DNA of 64,000 nucleotides from positions 1 to 64,000 of IMG/VR virus record IMGVR_UViG_3300044816_000011. One strand, given 5' to 3'. The first letter of the stretch is position 1. The number at the start of each line of letters is the position of its first letter. The notes under the pieces were generated by a model. That model worked only from the letters and a program-made list of their open reading frames with translations. It was not told the DNA's origin and did no database searches. A program made the position numbers and the translations under genes. This DNA is from a virus. Positions 14,296 to 58,768 of this stretch are shown here, piece by piece.

Positions 14296-17200
14296 CGCAA
14301 GTAACCGTCAACCAGAACGGACCCATTGATGTAGTGACGGTCTATACGCCGGGGCCGCAGGGACCCACTGGCCCTATGGGGAATCAAGGGCCATCTGGAC
14401 CATCAGGGCCTACAGGACCAACAGGCGTGACTGGTCCATCTGGAACGGGACCGACTGGACCAAGCGTAACGGGGCCAACAGGCCCAACGGGCGCAACCGG
14501 TCCTGGTGGTACAGGTCCCACTGGCCCAACGGGCACAGGTGCAACCGGTCCGACAGGCACATCAGGCACATCCGGTTCCGATGGTCCTACGGGACCTGGT
14601 GGTCCGACTGGGCCGACTGGCATTCAAGGCGCAACAGGTCCAGGGAGTGGCCCTACAGGCCCCACAGGACCTACAGGTATCTCAGGTCCGACCGGCCCCG
14701 CGAGTGGCCCTACTGGACCTACTGGTCCCACTGGTGCTAACGGCACTACGGGAGCTGGTGGGCCTACTGGCGTCGCAGGCCCAACTGGACCAACCGGTAC
14801 GACGGGAACTACAGGCGCGGCAGGTCCGACTGGGCCTACGGGACCTACTGGGACCACGGGAACTACAGGCGCAATCGGCCCTACGGGGCCTACTGGTCCG
14901 ACCGGAACTACGGGAACGACTGGTGCAGGTGGTCCAACTGGGCCTACGGGTATCGGGCCCACTGGGCCAATCGGAGTTGGCGCAACCGGTCCGACAGGTA
15001 CGGCCGGGCCAACTGGACCCACAGGTACCGCAGGCACTGCTGGCGCCAATGGCCCGACCGGGCCCACTGGAACAGTCGGCGCAGGTGGTCCGACTGGGCC
15101 AGGCGGTACAGGACCTACAGGTCCAGGTGGCGCACTCGGACCCACAGGTCCGACTGGCGCGATTGGTCCCACGGGCAATATCTCGAATCTCGTATTCGCC
15201 AGTAGCTATGCCGGGATCACGCCGGGCGGTACGGTCGATAGTCGAACTGCGGTCAATGCAGCGATACAGGCGACGGCTGCGGCGGGCGATATTTTTGTGA
15301 TCGATTGCATTATTTTGGTGACCATCGGCTCCGATATCACGAAGCCGATATTCCTGCCGCCGAATGCATCGATTTTCTTCATGCCGAATTGCTACATCGT
15401 GACAGACCATATTTTGGTGCCGTTATTCGTGATTTGTAATTCCTCGAATATCACGTTCAAGGATTACAACGTCCAATACATTGGCACATTCGGAGTGACG
15501 GCGATAGATGCGGGGAACCCATCTGATCCAATCTATCCAGTGCTCGGCAATTTCAATGATATTACTGTCAAGGCTTACATGGGCGCCAACTGGGGCAATA
15601 CCTATACAGGCGGCGGCAGTTCTATATTCCCGTCCGCAACCAATGCGACAGCGCAAATTCTGATGAGTGGCGTTTCGAATCACATCAATTTCCTCGGCAA
15701 GACTCGCGCATGGGTGCCTGATCTCACGGGCGGCGTAGCGACTCCAGCCTGCAATTTCATTCCCTGCTTTATATCGGTCTATGCACAGTGGTTGCCGAAT
15801 ACGTTGATTACGACGTCTATACAAGGGAATCCGCCAAACTCAACAAATGCCGCAGTACCAGACCATGTATTGATAGAAGATTTGGAGCTCGATGGCTGCA
15901 TCATGGGGATCGTTGGAACTTGCACCCATATTCAGATCAACCACGGTCATAGCATCCGCTACTCAGATTTGCAGGATGCGAACGGCAACAATGTGGGCGG
16001 TAAGGTCTATACGATTACGGCACTGACTGGCGCTCCGGTTACACCGTTCACAAGCGCGACGCTAACTGCCAATTGGGCCTATGCGACACATGCGTATAAC
16101 GTGACTTTCAGCGATGGCTCGCAAAAGGCAGCGACATTCACGAATGGATCTCCGACGATTACCTGGCTAGGTGCAGTCGCTAGTGGACTAGCGGCCTCCA
16201 TCGGCGTTCAATATTCAACGGTATGGTTTGCTCCACCACATTTTATCTATATTCACTCGCTAGATTTCAACGGGAACTTCCCTTGTACGCATGACTTTGG
16301 TGTGGTCTATGATGAGGGAAAATATGTCGGCGGTATTAATCGACGGCCGACTAATTCAGGCTATTTGAATTCAATCAAGTTCGAACCTGCGAACGGATCG
16401 ACCATAGCGAATTACACGACATTGCGCCCCGATGGCGGCATGGACGTTCTGTCTTTCTCTAATTCTAACGGATCTATATCGAAGTTCTTCGCGATCTACA
16501 ATTCGGCGACTGCTCAGACGGGGCAACTGGTATTTACTGGAGCATTATCGTCGGCAACGAGTGGAACGCTCAATGCGCCATGGCCCTATGGCAGCGGGAC
16601 ACAGACCTATGCGATCACGTTCAGCAATGGCACGACGCAGACCGGTACGTTTATAAACAGTCAAACGACTGTGACATGGGCGACTCCAGTCACTGCAACG
16701 GCGATTGCTAGTGTCGTGAACACCTCGAATACCGCAAACTTCATGTGGCGGTTTCCATCGGTTCCAGCGGTTATCGGATACTCAATGGAGTACGAAGGAT
16801 TCGATACCGCTCCAGTACCGATAAATAACGGTTGCCAGGGCGACGGACAGATATTGAACTCCGGTATTAGCATGCGTGGACGGGTCACGCTCAACGATAT
16901 TCCGTTTGGTTCAACCTGGCAGCCAGGATTTGGATTCGGCGGCACTGACATCAGTATCGATCATACGATTATTCTCAATAGTTGCTCGACGACGCAAGGG
17001 TTCATCGGATTTTTCCCGAATGTCAGTACGACATTGCTCACGGAGTCCAATGTCAAAATAACAGTGATCGGCTGGCGATCCGCGAAGGTGACATTTACTG
17101 GCGCACTGGCGGCGGCTACAAGTGGTACGTTGACGGCTTGGAACTACGGAAATGGTACGTTCACGTTAGCATTTAGCGATGGTTCAGAACGTCAGGTTGC

Positions 17201-20216: not shown

Positions 20217-21368
<1,152 letters not shown>

Positions 21369-44673: not shown

Positions 44674-44751
44674 TCAAATCTCCTTAGTGACACCTGGCTT
44701 TGCAGCGGGAATCACGGCCCAGTCGTTGCCGATGTACCATGTGGTGATCAT
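44674..44751 (-). CDS. 25-residue coupled mini-ORF
   Basis: Starts on the last base of the acyltransferase stop codon (TAATG) and ends just before the next gene, whose AAGGAG ribosome site lies inside it. Sequence MITTWYIGNDWAVIPAAKPG and five more residues. It may work mainly as a translational link. Confidence 0.35.
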   Translation of the reverse strand: MITTWYIGNDWAVIPAAKPGVTKEI

Positions 44752-45845
44752 TATTTAACTCCGATAACCTGTAAGTGTGCGTTCGATTTCCAGCGAAATC
44801 GCCGCATGGGTCCCTCGACCCAATAATACGACATCACAGCTCCTGCAAACGACAGCCCCCATGCCATCGCGTCATGCATAAATGGATTCTCAATCAATAC
44901 ATCCGACACGATCAGTGCGAGACAATGATATAGGTACAGGGAATAGCTGATCGCACCAATGAATACGAGTGGGCGGTATTCGATGGCGGATTTTACAGCG
45001 CTCGCCGGTGCGCGCCAGAACAGTGATACAAACAGAGCCGTGAGCGAAAGCCCTTGAACCGTGTAGATAAATGTTTCCTTGTATTCCTCGCTGCGCGGGA
45101 AAAATGATAGCGCCATGATAACTGCGGCTACGGCTGCGCCTCGATAACCTTGCAATGCACTCAGGAACCGTTCTGCTAGGCTGCCATCCAATCTTTCAGC
45201 GCGCCTGAATATAAGCGACAGCGCGCAGCCGTAAACAATAGAATCGAGGCGCGTATCAGTGCCCATATAGATGCGCTGGGGCGGCAGGTCACATGCATGC
45301 ACGAGCCACAACCGCCATACCAATTCCAGGCATACGAAGGCACATAGTCCGATCAGTAACCGATCTAAATATTTTCGGCACGCTAGGAGCAGCAGGGGGA
45401 ACAGCAAGTAAAAGTGCTCCTCAACGGCCAATGACCATGTAATCATCAGTGGCGATCTCACCTCGACCGCCGCATGGTAGGCCGTGAATGGGGTGTAGAT
45501 CGTGTGATAGTTGGCGTAGTAAAAGAGCGCCGACGATATGTCAGATAACGGCATTGGATAGTCCAGCAGATGCATTATCAGGGCCGACAGTGCGACATAG
45601 ACGACGAGCGCAGGCATGAGGCGAAACCAGCGACGGCGATAGAACGCGCTTAGACTCAGCGTGCCAGTGCGGTCGATTTCGGCAAGCAGTAAACGCGTGA
45701 TGATGAACCCAGAAATAAAGAAAAATATCGTCACGCCAAGTCCCCCTGGGATGTGGTGCTTATCGAAAATGTGACTGGTTGCGACGATCAGCACAGACAT
45801 TCCCCGGAGGCCGTCGAGAGCAGGGATGCGTCCTGAGCTACTCAC
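44751..45845 (-). CDS. Membrane O-acyltransferase (acyltransferase 3 family)
   Basis: 364 residues, GTG start. The N-terminus has RIPALDGLRGMSVLIVATSH, then ITIFFFISGFIITRLL, the signature of acyltransferase 3 enzymes, followed by RRRWFRLMPALVVYVALSAL and around nine further hydrophobic segments, ending SYYWVEGPMRRF. Such enzymes acetylate cell-surface sugars such as O-antigen. On a phage this suggests surface modification of the infected cell, for example to block other phages. Flanked by tiny membrane-protein genes. Confidence 0.8.
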   Translation of the reverse strand: MSSSGRIPALDGLRGMSVLIVATSHIFDKHHIPGGLGVTIFFFISGFIITRLLLAEIDRTGTLSLSAFYRRRWFRLMPALVVYVALSALIMHLLDYPMPLSDISSALFYYANYHTIYTPFTAYHAAVEVRSPLMITWSLAVEEHFYLLFPLLLLACRKYLDRLLIGLCAFVCLELVWRLWLVHACDLPPQRIYMGTDTRLDSIVYGCALSLIFRRAERLDGSLAERFLSALQGYRGAAVAAVIMALSFFPRSEEYKETFIYTVQGLSLTALFVSLFWRAPASAVKSAIEYRPLVFIGAISYSLYLYHCLALIVSDVLIENPFMHDAMAWGLSFAGAVMSYYWVEGPMRRFRWKSNAHLQVIGVK

Positions 45846-46674: not shown

Positions 46675-46828
46675 GTTCCGCCTCCCGCCTCCGCTCCCGC
46701 GCCTCGACCATCTTGCGATAGTGCTCCGCGTTGCCGCGCTTCTTTTTCTTGCCTTTGCCGTTCTTGCCGCCCTGCGCGCCGATCTTGGCCATGTAGTCGG
46801 AGACTGATTTGGGGACGTCGCGGGTCAC
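46667..46828 (-). CDS. Small very basic phage protein (GGKNGKGKK type)
   Basis: 53 residues, GTG start overlapping the upstream stop. Sequence begins VTRDVPKSVSDYMAKIGAQG, continues GKNGKGKKKKRGNAEHYRK and ends in a charged helix. Small basic proteins of this style are common in phages and bacteria and may bind nucleic acid. Confidence 0.55.
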   Translation of the reverse strand: MTRDVPKSVSDYMAKIGAQGGKNGKGKKKKRGNAEHYRKMVEARERRREAERG

Positions 46829-47322
46829 AGCTTAATCTCGATGCGTTCACCCGACTCCAAGTACGCTCCAGGCACATCCGTCCCAGCCTGCAACGCGGCC
46901 TTAACCGCCTTCTTATCAACTCGCCTCGGCGGCGGATCAGGCTGGATCCAGAACGCCTCCGGGATCGATGGCTCGTCGCTGACTTGCACGGCCACCGGGT
47001 TATTGCGGCGGGCGATGACGATTTCGGGCGTGTTGATTTTTTTCCAGTCCATCGCCATAAATTGTAGGAGCAAATAGGCCCGCATCGACTCGGCGCGCTT
47101 GCCAATCCTGAGCGCACGGAGATCCATAGCAGCAGCGGCTTCGGCGATGGCTTTGGCTTCGGCGTCAAGGCCCATGATGAACTTGGCGACTGCTACGGCC
47201 TTGACTTCGAAATCTCCTTCAAGGCTCTCTAGGGTATCCGCAATGAACTCGGGCGCTAGGTCGTCGCTGTCGGCTAGGGATTCTAGAGCGCGGTATTGCG
47301 ATGCAATTTCAAACAGACGCAC
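46825..47322 (-). CDS. Gp157-like phage protein (Siphovirus Gp157 family)
   Basis: 165 residues. The family pattern is seen throughout: LFEIASQYRALESLADSDDL, then LESLEGDFEVKAVAVAKFIM, RAYLLLQFMAMDWKKINTP, NNPVAVQVSDEPSIPEAFW, and a final DKKAVKAALQAGTDVPGAYL. Proteins of this family usually stand beside single-strand annealing recombinases, as here, and a protective role against host defence has been suggested for members in lactic phages. Start overlaps the recT-like stop. Confidence 0.75.
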   Translation of the reverse strand: MRLFEIASQYRALESLADSDDLAPEFIADTLESLEGDFEVKAVAVAKFIMGLDAEAKAIAEAAAAMDLRALRIGKRAESMRAYLLLQFMAMDWKKINTPEIVIARRNNPVAVQVSDEPSIPEAFWIQPDPPPRRVDKKAVKAALQAGTDVPGAYLESGERIEIKL

Positions 47323-48110
47323 TAGACTATCTCCCCAGCCTCAATCACCGAGCACATATCGTCGTACACCGACTTCAGTCGCTTCTTCGCGTTCTCGTCG
47401 CCGGCAGTCTTAGCGATTGTGTAGGCTTTGCCGAACGCTTGGATTAGTTCTGGCATGGTCTTCACGTCCATGCTGTTAACCAGCGCATCGACTTCTTCGA
47501 CCGGCAACTCAGACTTGACCTGCGCGGCTGATTCGGCAACGGCTTGCGTGATCGAGACGGGATCGGGTACCGTTTCGGATTCGATCTGGCGCAGTTCCGC
47601 CGGGGTGTACATCTGCGATGTCGCGCCCGGAGCCGCGCTACGAACGCCTTCCGAGATGCATCGGCTACGCAGCATGGCCCGTGTGTACTTCGAGTACATG
47701 CCGCCTTCCTTGCTCGCGAGGCCAGCCTTTTTGGCTCGCTCAATCGTCCAGTCGATCAATATCGGTTTCGGCGATAATGGATGCGAGAACAGGGCAGACG
47801 CACATTCATCCGTCAGTGCCTGCCACTCAATACGGCCCCCGCTAGCCTGAAAATCTCGCAACATGGCCTCGGCGTTCTTGGAGGCTTTACCATTGATGAC
47901 GTTGAAATCCCGAGCGATCAATGCGGGATTTTTATTTTCGGCTTGGGCAATTAGCATTAATGCCAATGCCTGATCCGGATCTTTGATTCCGAATAGCCCT
48001 GAATTTGCGAATGTTTTCGCGATTCGCTGCAGTTGTTCGAAGCTAAACGATTGTGGCGCAGGATACTGCTGAATATCTTGCGGGATTCTAGTGACTAGTT
48101 CTTTAGACAT
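47322..48110 (-). CDS. RecT-like single-strand annealing protein
   Basis: 262 residues from the ATG at 48110 with TGAGG upstream; a longer frame to 48233 overlaps the next gene and is not preferred. Family pattern: FEQLQRIAKTFANSGLFGIK, QALALMLIAQAENKNPALIA, RDFNVINGKASKNAEAMLRD, YSKYTRAMLRSRCISEGVRS, TSQMYTPAELRQIESE. It would pair homologous strands during replication or recombination. Neighbouring Gp157-like gene supports it. Confidence 0.7.
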   Translation of the reverse strand: MSKELVTRIPQDIQQYPAPQSFSFEQLQRIAKTFANSGLFGIKDPDQALALMLIAQAENKNPALIARDFNVINGKASKNAEAMLRDFQASGGRIEWQALTDECASALFSHPLSPKPILIDWTIERAKKAGLASKEGGMYSKYTRAMLRSRCISEGVRSAAPGATSQMYTPAELRQIESETVPDPVSITQAVAESAAQVKSELPVEEVDALVNSMDVKTMPELIQAFGKAYTIAKTAGDENAKKRLKSVYDDMCSVIEAGEIV

Positions 48111-48117
48111 ATAAACC

Positions 48118-50151
48118 TCAGGATTCAAATTGTGGGAAATAGTCTGATGGCTTAGCGAAGACGAGCGCGCCTCCAGGCAAACGCCACGTACTCGCCGCAG
48201 CCGCCTGACAATCCGTGCTCGCTTGGCCGTCATAGGCGTCAGGCTGTACGCGAAGCTGATACCGCTTCACACTCCCATCCGGCTCAGCCGTCGAGTTCAG
48301 CAAATCAATCATCACAATCGTCTCGTCGCCCTGGATTTCCTTGCGCAGCAGTCGCGCTGTCCGCAGGCCGACAATCGGGTGATCGGCTGGGAGCTCGTGG
48401 ACGATGGTCGCGCCGCTGTCTCGCAGATACCTGGCTGCGCCATAGCGGTCGATCATCACGCGGCGGACCTCGGCGTTGGTTTCCGCTTCGATCTGATGCA
48501 CCGTGAGCGTTTCAGGCGCTTCGACGATTTGCTGCGTAACACGCACGCCGTGAATCGAATACACGCCCCAGCCGTCATTCCAAGAAACAGCGGGGCCGGT
48601 AGTATTGTGCAATCGATGCGACCCCCATCCGCGCGGTCGATTCGCATCGACCAATTCCCGATGGATGGAGCGAGGCCGCTCACAGACCATGATGAAATCT
48701 TTGTGCGGATACCACCAGCAAGCAGACTGGATGGTTTTTTCGTAAGCGATTCCGCGCCGCCAGAGATCGCCATTTAAATCAAGATTGGCGACTTCGCGAA
48801 AGAACGATGTGTACGCGCCGCCCCAATACCATCCGCCACACCAGAACTGGCCGCCGATATAGTTGGACCACATGTTTTTTATACAATCTAAGACCGCAGC
48901 ATGGATCTTAGAAGAAGGAACAGCGCCGTCAACAGCGCCGCGAACAGCGCCGTCAACAGCGCCGTGAACAGCGCCGTCAACAGCGCCGTGAACAGCGCCT
49001 TGAACAGCGCCGCGAACAGCGCCGCCAACAGCGCCGTCAACAGCGCCGTCAACAGCGCCGTGAACAGCGCCGTCAACAGCGCCGTGAACAGCGCCGCCAA
49101 CAGCGCCGTCAACAGCGCCGTGAACAGCGCCGCGAACAGCGCCGTCAACAGCGCCTTGAACAGCGCCTTGAACAGCGCCGTCAACAGCGCCGCCAACAGC
49201 GCCGCGAACAGCGCCGCCAACAGCGCCGCCAACAGCGCCGTCAACAGCGCCTTGAACAGCGCCGTCAACAGCGCCGTCAACAGCGCCGCGAACAGCGCCG
49301 TCAACAGCGCCGCCAACAGCGCCGCGAACAGCGCCGTCAACAGCGCCGTCAACAGCGCCTTGAACAACGTCGCCAACAGCGCCTTGAACAGCGCCTTGAA
49401 CAGCGCCTTGAACAGCGCCGTCAACAGCGCCGACAACAGCGCCGCGAACAGCGCCGCCAACAGCGCCGCCAACAGCGCCGCCAACAGCGCCGCGAACAGC
49501 GCCGCCAACAGCGCCGCCAACAGCGCCGCGAACAGCGCCTTGAACAACGTCGCCAACAGCGCCTTGAACAGCGCCTTGAACAGCGCCGTCAACAGCGCCG
49601 CCAACAGCGCCGCGAACAGCGCCGCCAACAGCGCCGCCAACAGCGCCGCGAACAGCGCCTTGAACAACGTCGCCAACAGCGCCGTGAACAACGTCGCCAA
49701 CAGCGCCGTGAACAGCGTCGCGAACAGCGCCGTGAACAGCGCCGTGAACAGCGCCGCCAACAGCGCCGCTAACAGCGTCGCGAACAGCGTCGCGAACAGC
49801 GCCTTGAACAGCGCCGCGAACAGCGCCGCGAACAGCGCCGTCAACAGCGCCGTGAACAGCGCCGTCAACAGCGTCGCGAACAGCGTCAGTGCCGCTCAGT
49901 TTCTTAGCCATCTGAATTAGGAAAGCAGCGGTCGGAGCGGCAATAGCCATTACCATCGGAGATGTGACCCAGACGACATTCCCATGCCATGGGATGCCCG
50001 CGTACCGATAACATTCCTCGGCCGCTGATTCGAATTGCGTCCGGTCAGCGGGGCCAGTGCGAAGACCGATCTCTATCCATTTGTCCGCCCATTCATCGAA
50101 TCTAGCGGTCTGCGCGGCTGTTAGCTTATCAACTCGTAATACTTTCTTCAT
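48118..50151 (-). CDS. GAVx tandem-repeat protein with DUF6745-like C-terminus
   Basis: 677 residues. Residues 1-88 form a helical head (FDEWADKWIEIGLRTGPADR, GNVVWVTSPMVMAIAAPTAA). From about 89 to 411 the chain is a tetrapeptide tandem, Gly-Ala-Val plus one polar residue (D, R, H, Q or G). The rest (about 412-677) looks like the DUF6745 family: CIKNMWSNYIGGQFWCGGWY, HKDFIMVCERPRSIHREL, RLHNTTGPAVSWNDGWGVYS, NAEVRRVMIDRYGAARYLR, NSTAEPDGSVKRYQLRV. Function unknown. It lies between recT-like and a His-rich protein gene. Confidence 0.75.
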   Translation of the reverse strand: MKKVLRVDKLTAAQTARFDEWADKWIEIGLRTGPADRTQFESAAEECYRYAGIPWHGNVVWVTSPMVMAIAAPTAAFLIQMAKKLSGTDAVRDAVDGAVHGAVDGAVRGAVRGAVQGAVRDAVRDAVSGAVGGAVHGAVHGAVRDAVHGAVGDVVHGAVGDVVQGAVRGAVGGAVGGAVRGAVGGAVDGAVQGAVQGAVGDVVQGAVRGAVGGAVGGAVRGAVGGAVGGAVGGAVRGAVVGAVDGAVQGAVQGAVQGAVGDVVQGAVDGAVDGAVRGAVGGAVDGAVRGAVDGAVDGAVQGAVDGAVGGAVGGAVRGAVGGAVDGAVQGAVQGAVDGAVRGAVHGAVDGAVGGAVHGAVDGAVHGAVDGAVDGAVGGAVRGAVQGAVHGAVDGAVHGAVDGAVRGAVDGAVPSSKIHAAVLDCIKNMWSNYIGGQFWCGGWYWGGAYTSFFREVANLDLNGDLWRRGIAYEKTIQSACWWYPHKDFIMVCERPRSIHRELVDANRPRGWGSHRLHNTTGPAVSWNDGWGVYSIHGVRVTQQIVEAPETLTVHQIEAETNAEVRRVMIDRYGAARYLRDSGATIVHELPADHPIVGLRTARLLRKEIQGDETIVMIDLLNSTAEPDGSVKRYQLRVQPDAYDGQASTDCQAAAASTWRLPGGALVFAKPSDYFPQFES
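48919..49887 (-). repeat. About 80-copy 12-bp tandem array
   Basis: Unit on the plus strand aacagcgccNNN, in exact 12-base phase over the whole length with no insertion or deletion. In the gene frame three codons are nearly fixed (GGC GCT GTT) and the fourth is GAC, CGC, CAC, GGC or CAA. Larger blocks recur, such as QGAVGDVVQGAVRGAV twice, showing higher-order duplications. Confidence 0.95.
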
Positions 50152-50156
50152 GGCAT

Positions 50157-50480
50157 TTAATCCTGTACGTTGCGCAAAGCGGCAGGCGTATATTCGACCT
50201 GAGATGGCAGCAGGTATTTGCCAGGTAGTACACGAGCCGTGCTGTGCTCCTCGTGCAATAGATCCGATGGCGCTGAGACTTCTAGGTATCGTTCGCCAGA
50301 ACCGGTGCGATAAAGCTTCACGCCGTCTTGACGGTCTACGAACTCGAAACGATGGTGGTGGCCGGTCATCTCACCGAATGCGAGGATGACTTTGTTGCCA
50401 GTCGGCGGCTGTAGCACGGCGTCTGTCGGGATGGACTTGATTCGAATCAACGCTACGTCGCCTTGACGGATGACTTTCAT
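50157..50480 (-). CDS. Conserved-type His-rich protein (RQGD/GHHH/HEEH)
   Basis: 107 residues. Motifs in order: RQGDVALIRIKSIP, GEMTGHHHRFEF, LLHEEHSTARVLPGKY, SQVEYTPAALRNVQD. I recall a widespread, uncharacterised family of phage and bacterial proteins with this set; the clustered His and Glu suggest a metal site in a small beta fold. It lies five bases from the GAVx gene, so the two could act together. Confidence 0.65.
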   Translation of the reverse strand: MKVIRQGDVALIRIKSIPTDAVLQPPTGNKVILAFGEMTGHHHRFEFVDRQDGVKLYRTGSGERYLEVSAPSDLLHEEHSTARVLPGKYLLPSQVEYTPAALRNVQD

Positions 50481-57442: not shown

Positions 57443-57506
57443 CCCCAGAATGGCTCGCTGTAGCACTATGAGTTGACGCTGACTGGTCGTATTGAGGGGA
57501 CTGAAA

Positions 57507-58130
57507 TTGTTCAATAAGCCACTAATGATAGATTTATTCGCAGGACTTGGAGGCTGGGCCTCTGGCGGTCTAGCCGAAGGCTATCAAGTCATCGGTTTCG
57601 ACAACGTGCGGCACATCTACGGCGAACATCGCTATCCCGCGCAGCTCGTCATTCAGGACGTGCTGACGCTGCATGGCAGTCAGTTCAAGGATGCGGCGCT
57701 GATCGTGGCCTCCCCTCCCTGCCAAGGCTATAGCTATCGAGCCATGCCGTGGAAGCGCGCCAAGGCACTGCCACCACCTGACAATTCACTTTTCGAGGCG
57801 TGCTTTCGCATCCAGGCGGAAGCGAGCGCGGCTGCCCGACGGCACATCCCAATGGTAGTTGAGAACGTGTGTGGCGCGCAGAAGTGGGTCGGGCGCTCGC
57901 GTTGGAACTATGGTCCATACGCGCTATGGGGTGACGTTCCTGCATTGATGCCAAAAGCCATTGGGGTCAGAAAGGGACAAGGCAGCGGTAGTAGTTGGTT
58001 CTACAAGAACGGAGGCAATGGGCGTTCTGCTTCGTCAAACTCGCATGAGCGAAAGCAGTGGTCGGCGACCGTAGCCAAAATCCCCCTTGAACTCTCTACG
58101 TGGATTGCCAAATGTTTCAAGCCTATCTGA
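57507..58130 (+). CDS. C5-cytosine DNA methyltransferase, short form
   Basis: 207 residues from a TTG with GAGGGGA upstream (57492 is an alternative). Motif I DLFAGLGGWASG (9-20), motif IV ASPPCQGYS with catalytic Cys near 72, motif VI VVENV. Typical enzymes have 300-400 residues with a target-recognition domain; this one has only a small C-terminal part. The end (TVAKIPLELSTWIAKCFKP) is repeated at the end of the following GIY-YIG protein. Confidence 0.75.
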   Translation: MFNKPLMIDLFAGLGGWASGGLAEGYQVIGFDNVRHIYGEHRYPAQLVIQDVLTLHGSQFKDAALIVASPPCQGYSYRAMPWKRAKALPPPDNSLFEACFRIQAEASAAARRHIPMVVENVCGAQKWVGRSRWNYGPYALWGDVPALMPKAIGVRKGQGSGSSWFYKNGGNGRSASSNSHERKQWSATVAKIPLELSTWIAKCFKPI

Positions 58131-58768
58131 TTACCTGCACTGCCAATGCAAAGACATATGTCGGAATCACTTCACGCAGTATCAGGCGGCGGTGGAATGA
58201 GCATTTATACGATGCTCGTCAGCGCAATACGAAGATGGCCATAAGCAGGGCAATTGCGAAATACGGTGTAGATAAGTTCGCAGTGCATGCACTCTGCTCT
58301 GCTCGCTCTTGGAGTGATATTTGCGCCGTTGAATCGATATTGATTTTGCAATATAGAACCAGAGCGCCAAATGGCTACAACGTGAGCGATGGCGGGAACG
58401 GACCGTTTGGAGTCAAGAAAACACCGGAATCAGTAGAACGGTCAGCCGCCAAACATCGCGGTAAGCCTTGTCATCCGAATACAATAGCCGCAGCACAAGC
58501 TAGGCGAGGCATCGCTAAGCCAGTGGGGCACGGCGCAAAGGTATCAGCCGCTCTAACTGGAATTCAGCGCTCAGAGAATACGAAAGCAAAACTGCGTGCA
58601 TATTGGGCTGCGCGTCGCGCTGCCGGCGATTTCAAGACGACAGAATCGTATGCACATCATCGCAAGTCCGCCATGATCGCCAAAATCCCGCTACCCCTCG
58701 CGCGCCACATCGCTCGCGTCTATTATCCCCGCGATCCAGCCGATATCACTTTACAATCCACGGTATAA
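58112..58768 (+). CDS. GIY-YIG homing endonuclease carrying a methyltransferase-like tail
   Basis: 218 residues from the ATG at 58112. The N-terminus is a clear GIY-YIG domain: AYLITCTANAKTYVGITSRS, RRRWNEHLYDARQ, then AVESILILQYRTRAPNGYNV. Segments like those of NUMOD DNA-binding modules follow (GVKKTPESVERSAAKHRGKP). The final segment, SAMIAKIPLPLARHIARVYY, matches the end of the upstream methyltransferase, as if the gene had captured its 3-prime end. Overlaps the methyltransferase by 19 bases. Confidence 0.8.
   Translation: MFQAYLITCTANAKTYVGITSRSIRRRWNEHLYDARQRNTKMAISRAIAKYGVDKFAVHALCSARSWSDICAVESILILQYRTRAPNGYNVSDGGNGPFGVKKTPESVERSAAKHRGKPCHPNTIAAAQARRGIAKPVGHGAKVSAALTGIQRSENTKAKLRAYWAARRAAGDFKTTESYAHHRKSAMIAKIPLPLARHIARVYYPRDPADITLQSTV

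Follow-up and report, generated by a model that had tools for sequence, protein, structure and literature searches.

The closest described system to the locus analysed here is the mycobacteriophage protein Tweety gp54, for whose counter-defence role Dedrick 2017 is said to be the primary report. As described in 2007, gp54 contains 48 tetrapeptide repeats, against 26 and 15 in its relatives Che8 gp57 and PMC gp51; the 12-bp unit has invariant third positions, and selection for variation was proposed (PMC2884959). Tweety mutants that escape defence carry more or fewer tetrapeptide repeats, so that gp54 is retuned, and the retuned protein acts against the defences of the Phrann or MichelleMyBell prophages (reviewed in PMC9262239 and PMC8549241). 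For Phrann, the defence is predicted to rely on a (p)ppGpp synthetase (PMC9262239). An in-frame repeat also occurs in VR2 of bbp36 from Bordetella phage BMP-1, in 9-20 copies, and the gene is dispensable for growth (PMC2884959). The original prediction saw in the present locus a candidate for an undescribed system. This stands insofar as no paper naming DUF6745 was found in a literature search; the array style, however, was described in 2007 (PMC2884959) and the counter-defence later (PMC9262239, PMC8549241).

The window is a stretch of 64,000 nucleotides, positions 1 to 64,000 of IMG/VR record IMGVR_UViG_3300044816_000011. The array gene and its neighbours are laid out as follows.

48118-50151, minus strand: DUF6745 protein of 677 aa with a tetrapeptide array in its centre (ORF and profile match)
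49888-50151, minus strand: helical N-terminal domain, residues 1-88 (AF2 pLDDT 94-98 over most of it; recognisable in array-less chromosomal relatives too)
48919-49887, minus strand: 12-bp array of 81 units, residues 89-411, GGC GCT GTT [GAC/GGC/CGC/CAA/CAC] (TRF and unit parse)
48121-48918, minus strand: C-terminal region, residues 412-677 (unit parse and AF2 model)
48232-48741, minus strand: match to Pfam DUF6745 (PF20530), residues 471-640 (134 bits, cut-off 27)
50157-50480, minus strand: partner gene, encoding a predicted all-beta protein of 107 aa (adjacency, pLDDT 88, phrog_27831)
46825-47322 and 47322-48110, minus strand: genes of Gp157/Gam-like and RecT-like type, immediately downstream of the array gene

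The window protein belongs to the DUF6745 (PF20530) family. The match has an E value of 5.6e-39, exceeds the gathering cut-off of 27 bits with 134, and covers profile positions 33-183 of 206, confirming the resemblance that the original prediction had noted at the C-terminus. The glycine-zipper family PF13436 scored E 1.4e-21 over the whole protein, yet no single stretch rose above threshold, and this score is probably compositional. Unit parsing found 81 in-frame units, the final one partial (GAVP), at the coordinates and in the 12-bp phase given by the original prediction. TRF reported a 12-bp unit in 80.7 copies at 48918-49885 (score 1215, 0% indels). GGC GCT GTT is fixed except for G to A at base 2 (9/81 units) and C to T at base 5 (4/81). 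The fourth codon is GAC in 19 units, GGC in 19, CGC in 17, CAA in 13, CAC in 10 and others in 3. Larger recurring blocks, as had been noted, are present: the longest repeated block is 7 units, compared with 3.9 in shuffled arrays.

A scan with the C-terminal domain recovered relatives at 80 viral loci and 80 bacterial-genome loci, and annotated phages supplied two further copies, in MW202476 and in prophiGD102-1, a prophage of Mycobacterium abscessus. With few exceptions, a viral copy has its conserved N-terminal region separated from DUF6745 by an array of 12-bp units. The unit itself depends on the lineage (AVx[GD], SVx[DA], QVx[AD], QLx[DG], QLxS, AVxS, ATxA, TVx[DA], GVx[AD]); its general form is s-[V/L]-X-B, where X and B are the variable positions. 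A pattern scan for GAV-type units found 22 stretches, and all 22 were DUF6745 genes. The expectation that array length varies between relatives is borne out by complete arrays of 17 to 95 units, all in frame, but not between strains. The only near-identical pair in which both arrays are complete (L055 and L059, IMG/VR records from different metagenomes, 99.99% over 8,513 bp) has identical 33-unit arrays.

Forty of the 80 related viral loci terminate inside the DUF6745 gene, almost always in the array. Assemblers therefore break there, the count of 81 units in a metagenome record is insecure, and copy numbers from metagenomes need long reads. The broken loci would be explained if the array were an assembly artefact. 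This reading has next to no probability because L055 and L059 carry identical arrays in two separate records and isolate genomes carry the same array architecture, and the array is real, as the original prediction assumed, even if its unit count may still be off. As a separate observation, each of the locus pairs L185/L194, L192/L201, L187/L200 and L190/L202 represents one viral contig whose two ends both lie in an array, which gives the appearance of a genome assembled whole apart from the array, at which the assembly broke.

The partner gene lies just upstream of the DUF6745 gene on the same strand, 5 bp from its start. The sequence at 50157-50480 matches the family model with E 1.7e-28 and is the one match in the whole record. 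The partner, which the original prediction overlooked, is the sole conserved neighbour. It is directly up- or downstream of DUF6745 at 39/39 testable viral loci and at nearly all of 74 genomic loci, and it is kept whether or not the DUF6745 neighbour has an array. Because the two genes are adjacent at all testable viral loci and no other neighbour is conserved among the loci compared, they belong together as a two-gene module. Residues G7, D8, H43, H76, H79 and D107 of the partner protein are invariant. It matched no Pfam family (best sub-threshold E 0.005, in 4/61 members) and had no PDB match. The other neighbour, singled out earlier as a possible driver of array changes, is indeed RecT-like (phrog_561, E 1.6e-18); a relative of it is found at only one other locus of the set. 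The loci sit among replication and recombination genes.

Several features were observed elsewhere in the window. At 57492-58768 (plus strand) a DNA_methylase match is limited to profile positions 3-78 of 324, and the ORF at 58100-58768 is by eye GIY-YIG endonuclease-like, with a C-terminus resembling that of the methylase ORF; this is perhaps a homing insertion. Tandem repeats at 14387-14950 and 20340-20996 have units that by eye look like collagen-like Gly-Pro-Thr coding. The gene at 44751-45845 (minus strand) encodes an acyltransferase (PF01757, O-antigen acetylase-like phrog_6705) and may be cargo that modifies the surface.

Chromosomes or plasmids hold nearly all copies that lack an array, and such copies are nested in several parts of the tree. 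By parsimony the tree holds 12 array changes, at least 5 of them forced by well-supported branches, and two array types occur within one clade. Where genomic copies do bear an array, several of the tested neighbours are phage-like (RecT-like, integrase, excisionase-type), and one such copy (L119) is the same locus as the viral record L061. Since array-less forms are nearly all chromosomal or plasmid-borne and array-bearing genomic copies have several phage-like neighbours where tested, the array is tied to phage copies. Loss in chromosomal copies is the simpler reading and is the direction that we infer. The chromosomal proteins resemble that of the window in the C-terminal domain, a related N-terminal region and an adjacent partner. 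They differ in having no array, or LRR-like repeats in Deinococcus, and many of the array-less copies adjoin STM4011-STM4015.

The STM4011-STM4015 genes (radical SAM, hydrolase, STM4014, STM4015) are regularly found beside the DUF6745-partner pair in actinobacteria and Deinococcus (L172, L174, L178 and most of L137-L169). They were found at 0/80 viral loci and nowhere in the window, and a literature search found no paper naming two of STM4011, 4012, 4013 and 4015. This neighbourhood raises the possibility that the pair has an enzymatic or metabolic role. The beta-protein, whose invariant Asp and His are perhaps metal-binding, and DUF6745 would then act together in phages as they do beside the bacterial radical-SAM and ATP-grasp-type genes STM4011-4015, and the phage array would be a mere spacer. 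Conservation of the partner with and without an array is also in keeping with such a module. However, no fold or sequence match points to an activity: Foldseek against PDB gave no significant match for the model of the DUF6745 protein or of the partner (best E 0.4-0.7), and a sequence search of PDB gave none. Selection for diversity within the array, presented below, would also be left unexplained, and we regard an enzyme with a spacer as unlikely. PADLOC returned no match, which counts against a link to defence. Residues about 578-677 are weakly similar to the single-strand-binding folds of Pur-alpha and PC4 (Z 3.7), a model-based likeness that is only a lead.

Sequence variation was quantified in 56 related arrays containing 1,905 units. 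In most arrays variation is limited to three bases, X1, X2 and B2. Nonsynonymous diversity (piN) reaches 0.398 for X and 0.223 for B, and piS is 0.02-0.04 in every slot. Variant bases, counted when present in at least two units, comprise 245 non-synonymous and 15 synonymous changes where 27% synonymous were expected (P about 1e-18; the P values take variants as independent and are indicative). Restricting the analysis to one array per distinct backbone (n=30) gave 114 and 3, respectively (P 4e-12). In 30 arrays, including that of the window, each slot uses a single codon per amino acid. Amino acids at X usually have one codon per array, and in arrays with NGG codons arginine is CGG or AGG, never both. 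Each array contains four to fifteen unit types in near-random order with some block duplications, and only some arrays exceed shuffles in repeated-block length.

The invariant silent sites, the 245:15 ratio of variants and the use of one codon per residue point to a homogenised backbone with selected variety at X and B. DUF6745 arrays are homogenised by copying within each genome, and new variants are rare. The statistics further show that amino-acid variety at X and B, drawn from a small alphabet, is maintained by selection. We hold this evolutionary description with high confidence. The original prediction had attributed the constancy of three codons to selection. That interpretation fails because their silent sites are equally invariant (piS 0.02-0.04 in all slots); constant codons alone reflect homogenisation, and the selection signal lies in the variable codons. 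Array turnover can outpace the flanks, as L014 and L015 have 8 differences in 4,141 bp, 5 of them clustered in the initial 36 bp, which belong to the array. The near-identical pair L052/L054 has identical arrays over their shared extent, as does L055/L059, so turnover is not always visible.

Silent sites as constant as coding ones, with replication genes nearby, could also suggest a DNA-level element (iterons, a recombination hot spot or a binding-site decoy) translated by chance. From lineage to lineage the unit changes and the peptide pattern does not, L056 and L058 have different last bases of B in aligned units, and variation is overwhelmingly non-synonymous, all of which leaves very little probability for such an element; a DNA-level motif was rejected because units differ between lineages. 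The array does not qualify as a target of a diversity-generating retroelement, since no reverse transcriptase (RVT_1) was found in the 68,153-bp record, which is possibly incomplete, and each residue has one codon. Random or targeted base mutagenesis of X was rejected, as it does not fit arrays that use CGG or AGG for arginine and not both, nor the lack of a reverse transcriptase in the record. Pure block duplication was rejected because repeated blocks are longer than in shuffles in some arrays only.

The arrangement of charges in DUF6745 arrays was then compared with expectation. Opposite charges are enriched at i+4 (239 versus 190 expected, z 4.9) and at i+3 (224 versus 198 expected, z 3.1), and like charges are depleted at i+4 (214 versus 256 expected, z -3.8). 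No comparable signal was observed at i+5, 7, 8, 11 or 12. The signal persists with 30 distinct backbones (z 3.5 and -3.4) and when repeated blocks are counted once. Salt bridges within a helix would be expected to leave just this charge order at i+3 and i+4, and in the AF2 model most of the window array forms long helices, albeit at low confidence (pLDDT about 29-76). In the window array alone the charge excess is not significant; it is the family-wide statistics that support selection for alpha-helicity. Overall, we consider it reasonably likely that the DUF6745 array is helical. Stable single alpha-helices (SAH) are long helices rich in E, R and K with i+3/i+4 salt bridges. Across the DUF6745 family a charge order at these spacings is present, without significance in the window, whose array is rich in A, G and V. 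AA-type arrays of other phage families, among the matches listed, have no i+4 charge order (z about 0), and the helix pattern is therefore not claimed as general.

These results bear on whether the array has a function at all. Neutral low-complexity expansion, in which replication slippage in a tolerant linker produces a functionless array, would accord with slippage-prone repeats, strong homogenisation and the two array types in one clade. It does not account for the non-synonymous excess at X and B, the charge order at i+3 and i+4, or the presence of arrays in nearly all phage copies when most chromosomal copies lack them, and we consider it quite unlikely. The array might instead read a sequence in the manner of TALE repeats, each X-B dipeptide contacting one polymer unit and the unit order serving as a programme. 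TALE repeats are folded units of about 34 residues with a known DNA code. DUF6745 arrays share with them a constant backbone and a variable residue pair, here two adjacent residues in four to fifteen unit types and near-random order. Four residues do not, however, make a folded repeat of the TALE kind, no conserved unit order was seen between relatives, and helix stability accounts for the charge order. Sequence reading is thus highly improbable.

Another possibility is a multivalent scaffold, a mixed-charge helical or low-complexity rod through which the protein would assemble something, or concentrate it, inside the infected cell, in replication, packaging or the protection of the genome. 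Diverse residues at X and B would prevent aggregation, and length would matter little. Arginine is present at X in 55/56 arrays, lysine is almost absent (3 versus 549), aromatics are found at X in 36/56 and the net charge of the arrays is neutral to negative. These properties suit a scaffold, as do the replication and recombination genes around the loci. A scaffold alone, however, would not lead one to expect the escape mutants of Tweety gp54, and we judge this explanation rather unlikely. By falling likelihood the alternatives rank as scaffold, enzyme module with spacer, neutral expansion, sequence-reading array and DNA element.

The explanation that we prefer, with a probability of roughly 40%, is that the DUF6745 gene is half of a phage two-gene module and encodes a Tweety-like tunable array protein. 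The helix-forming array would hold the N-terminal helical domain and the DUF6745 domain apart. As units are gained, lost and shuffled, the distance between these end domains and the surface between them would alter, and the protein may thereby be retuned against shifting bacterial or prophage defence factors. The partner protein would function as part of one complex with it. Copies on chromosomes, being out of the arms race, would generally have lost the array or never had it. Both the spacing effect and counter-defence are proposed by analogy, and a counter-defence role is tentative, at somewhat below even odds.

Arrays of this style are not confined to DUF6745. A scan for GCC GCA-type unit patterns, with clusters defined by quick blastp of flanks and uncurated, found at least four further phage protein clusters with other flanks (L212, L225, L229, L251; loci L205-L284), some of which match Imm5_like PF21805 and DUF7666 PF24703. 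Like the DUF6745 arrays they have 12-bp units and near-invariant silent sites; X is mostly {G,R,W}, B is mostly {A,D}, and a single arginine codon per array was used in 56/57 of these other-family arrays among the matches listed. They differ in their flanks, in a two-alanine backbone and in having no i+4 charge order. Diversified 12-bp tetrapeptide arrays may be a general phage device shared by Tweety gp54, the DUF6745 proteins and at least four other families with dissimilar flanks. Such a device would tune length and surface between end domains in frame, through recombination, and serve as a counter-defence ruler that adapts quickly; the DUF6745-partner pair would be one widespread carrier of it. 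We consider this generalisation speculative and on the unlikely side. If true, phages of many hosts own a contingency gene that changes in four-residue steps with the frame intact, and whose end domains look unrelated. Tweety gp54 would turn from one odd counter-defence gene into an example of a widespread strategy, and DUF6745 and its partner would gain a first testable role. The arrays would also be natural material for studying how diversity is kept by selection amid constant homogenisation.

Among described systems, bbp36 VR2 is likewise a variable-number in-frame repeat, cited as an analogue of the Tweety array and with a 24-bp rather than a 12-bp unit (PMC2884959). Tweety gp54 (phrog_3416) is closer. 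It shares a central 12-bp, four-codon array between unique N- and C-terminal parts, and its family shares first- and second-base variation in two codons, length differences and a location outside the structural genes. When remeasured, Tweety gp54 showed the same silent-site invariance as DUF6745 arrays. The unit differs, AA[G/W/Q][S/Y] compared with GAV-x in the window, and gp54 has no partner gene nearby, unlike DUF6745 loci. Comparison of gp54 with DUF6745 profiles gave E 0.02 through array composition and E above 0.1 with the flanks alone, and the window protein had no phrog_3416 match. Membership of the window protein in the gp54 family was rejected because the flanks are not detectably homologous. 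Counter-defence by Tweety gp54 is published (PMC9262239, PMC8549241); for the DUF6745 protein it is suggested by analogy. The window protein is a DUF6745 protein and not a Tweety gp54; given the shared architecture, it would most likely work like one.
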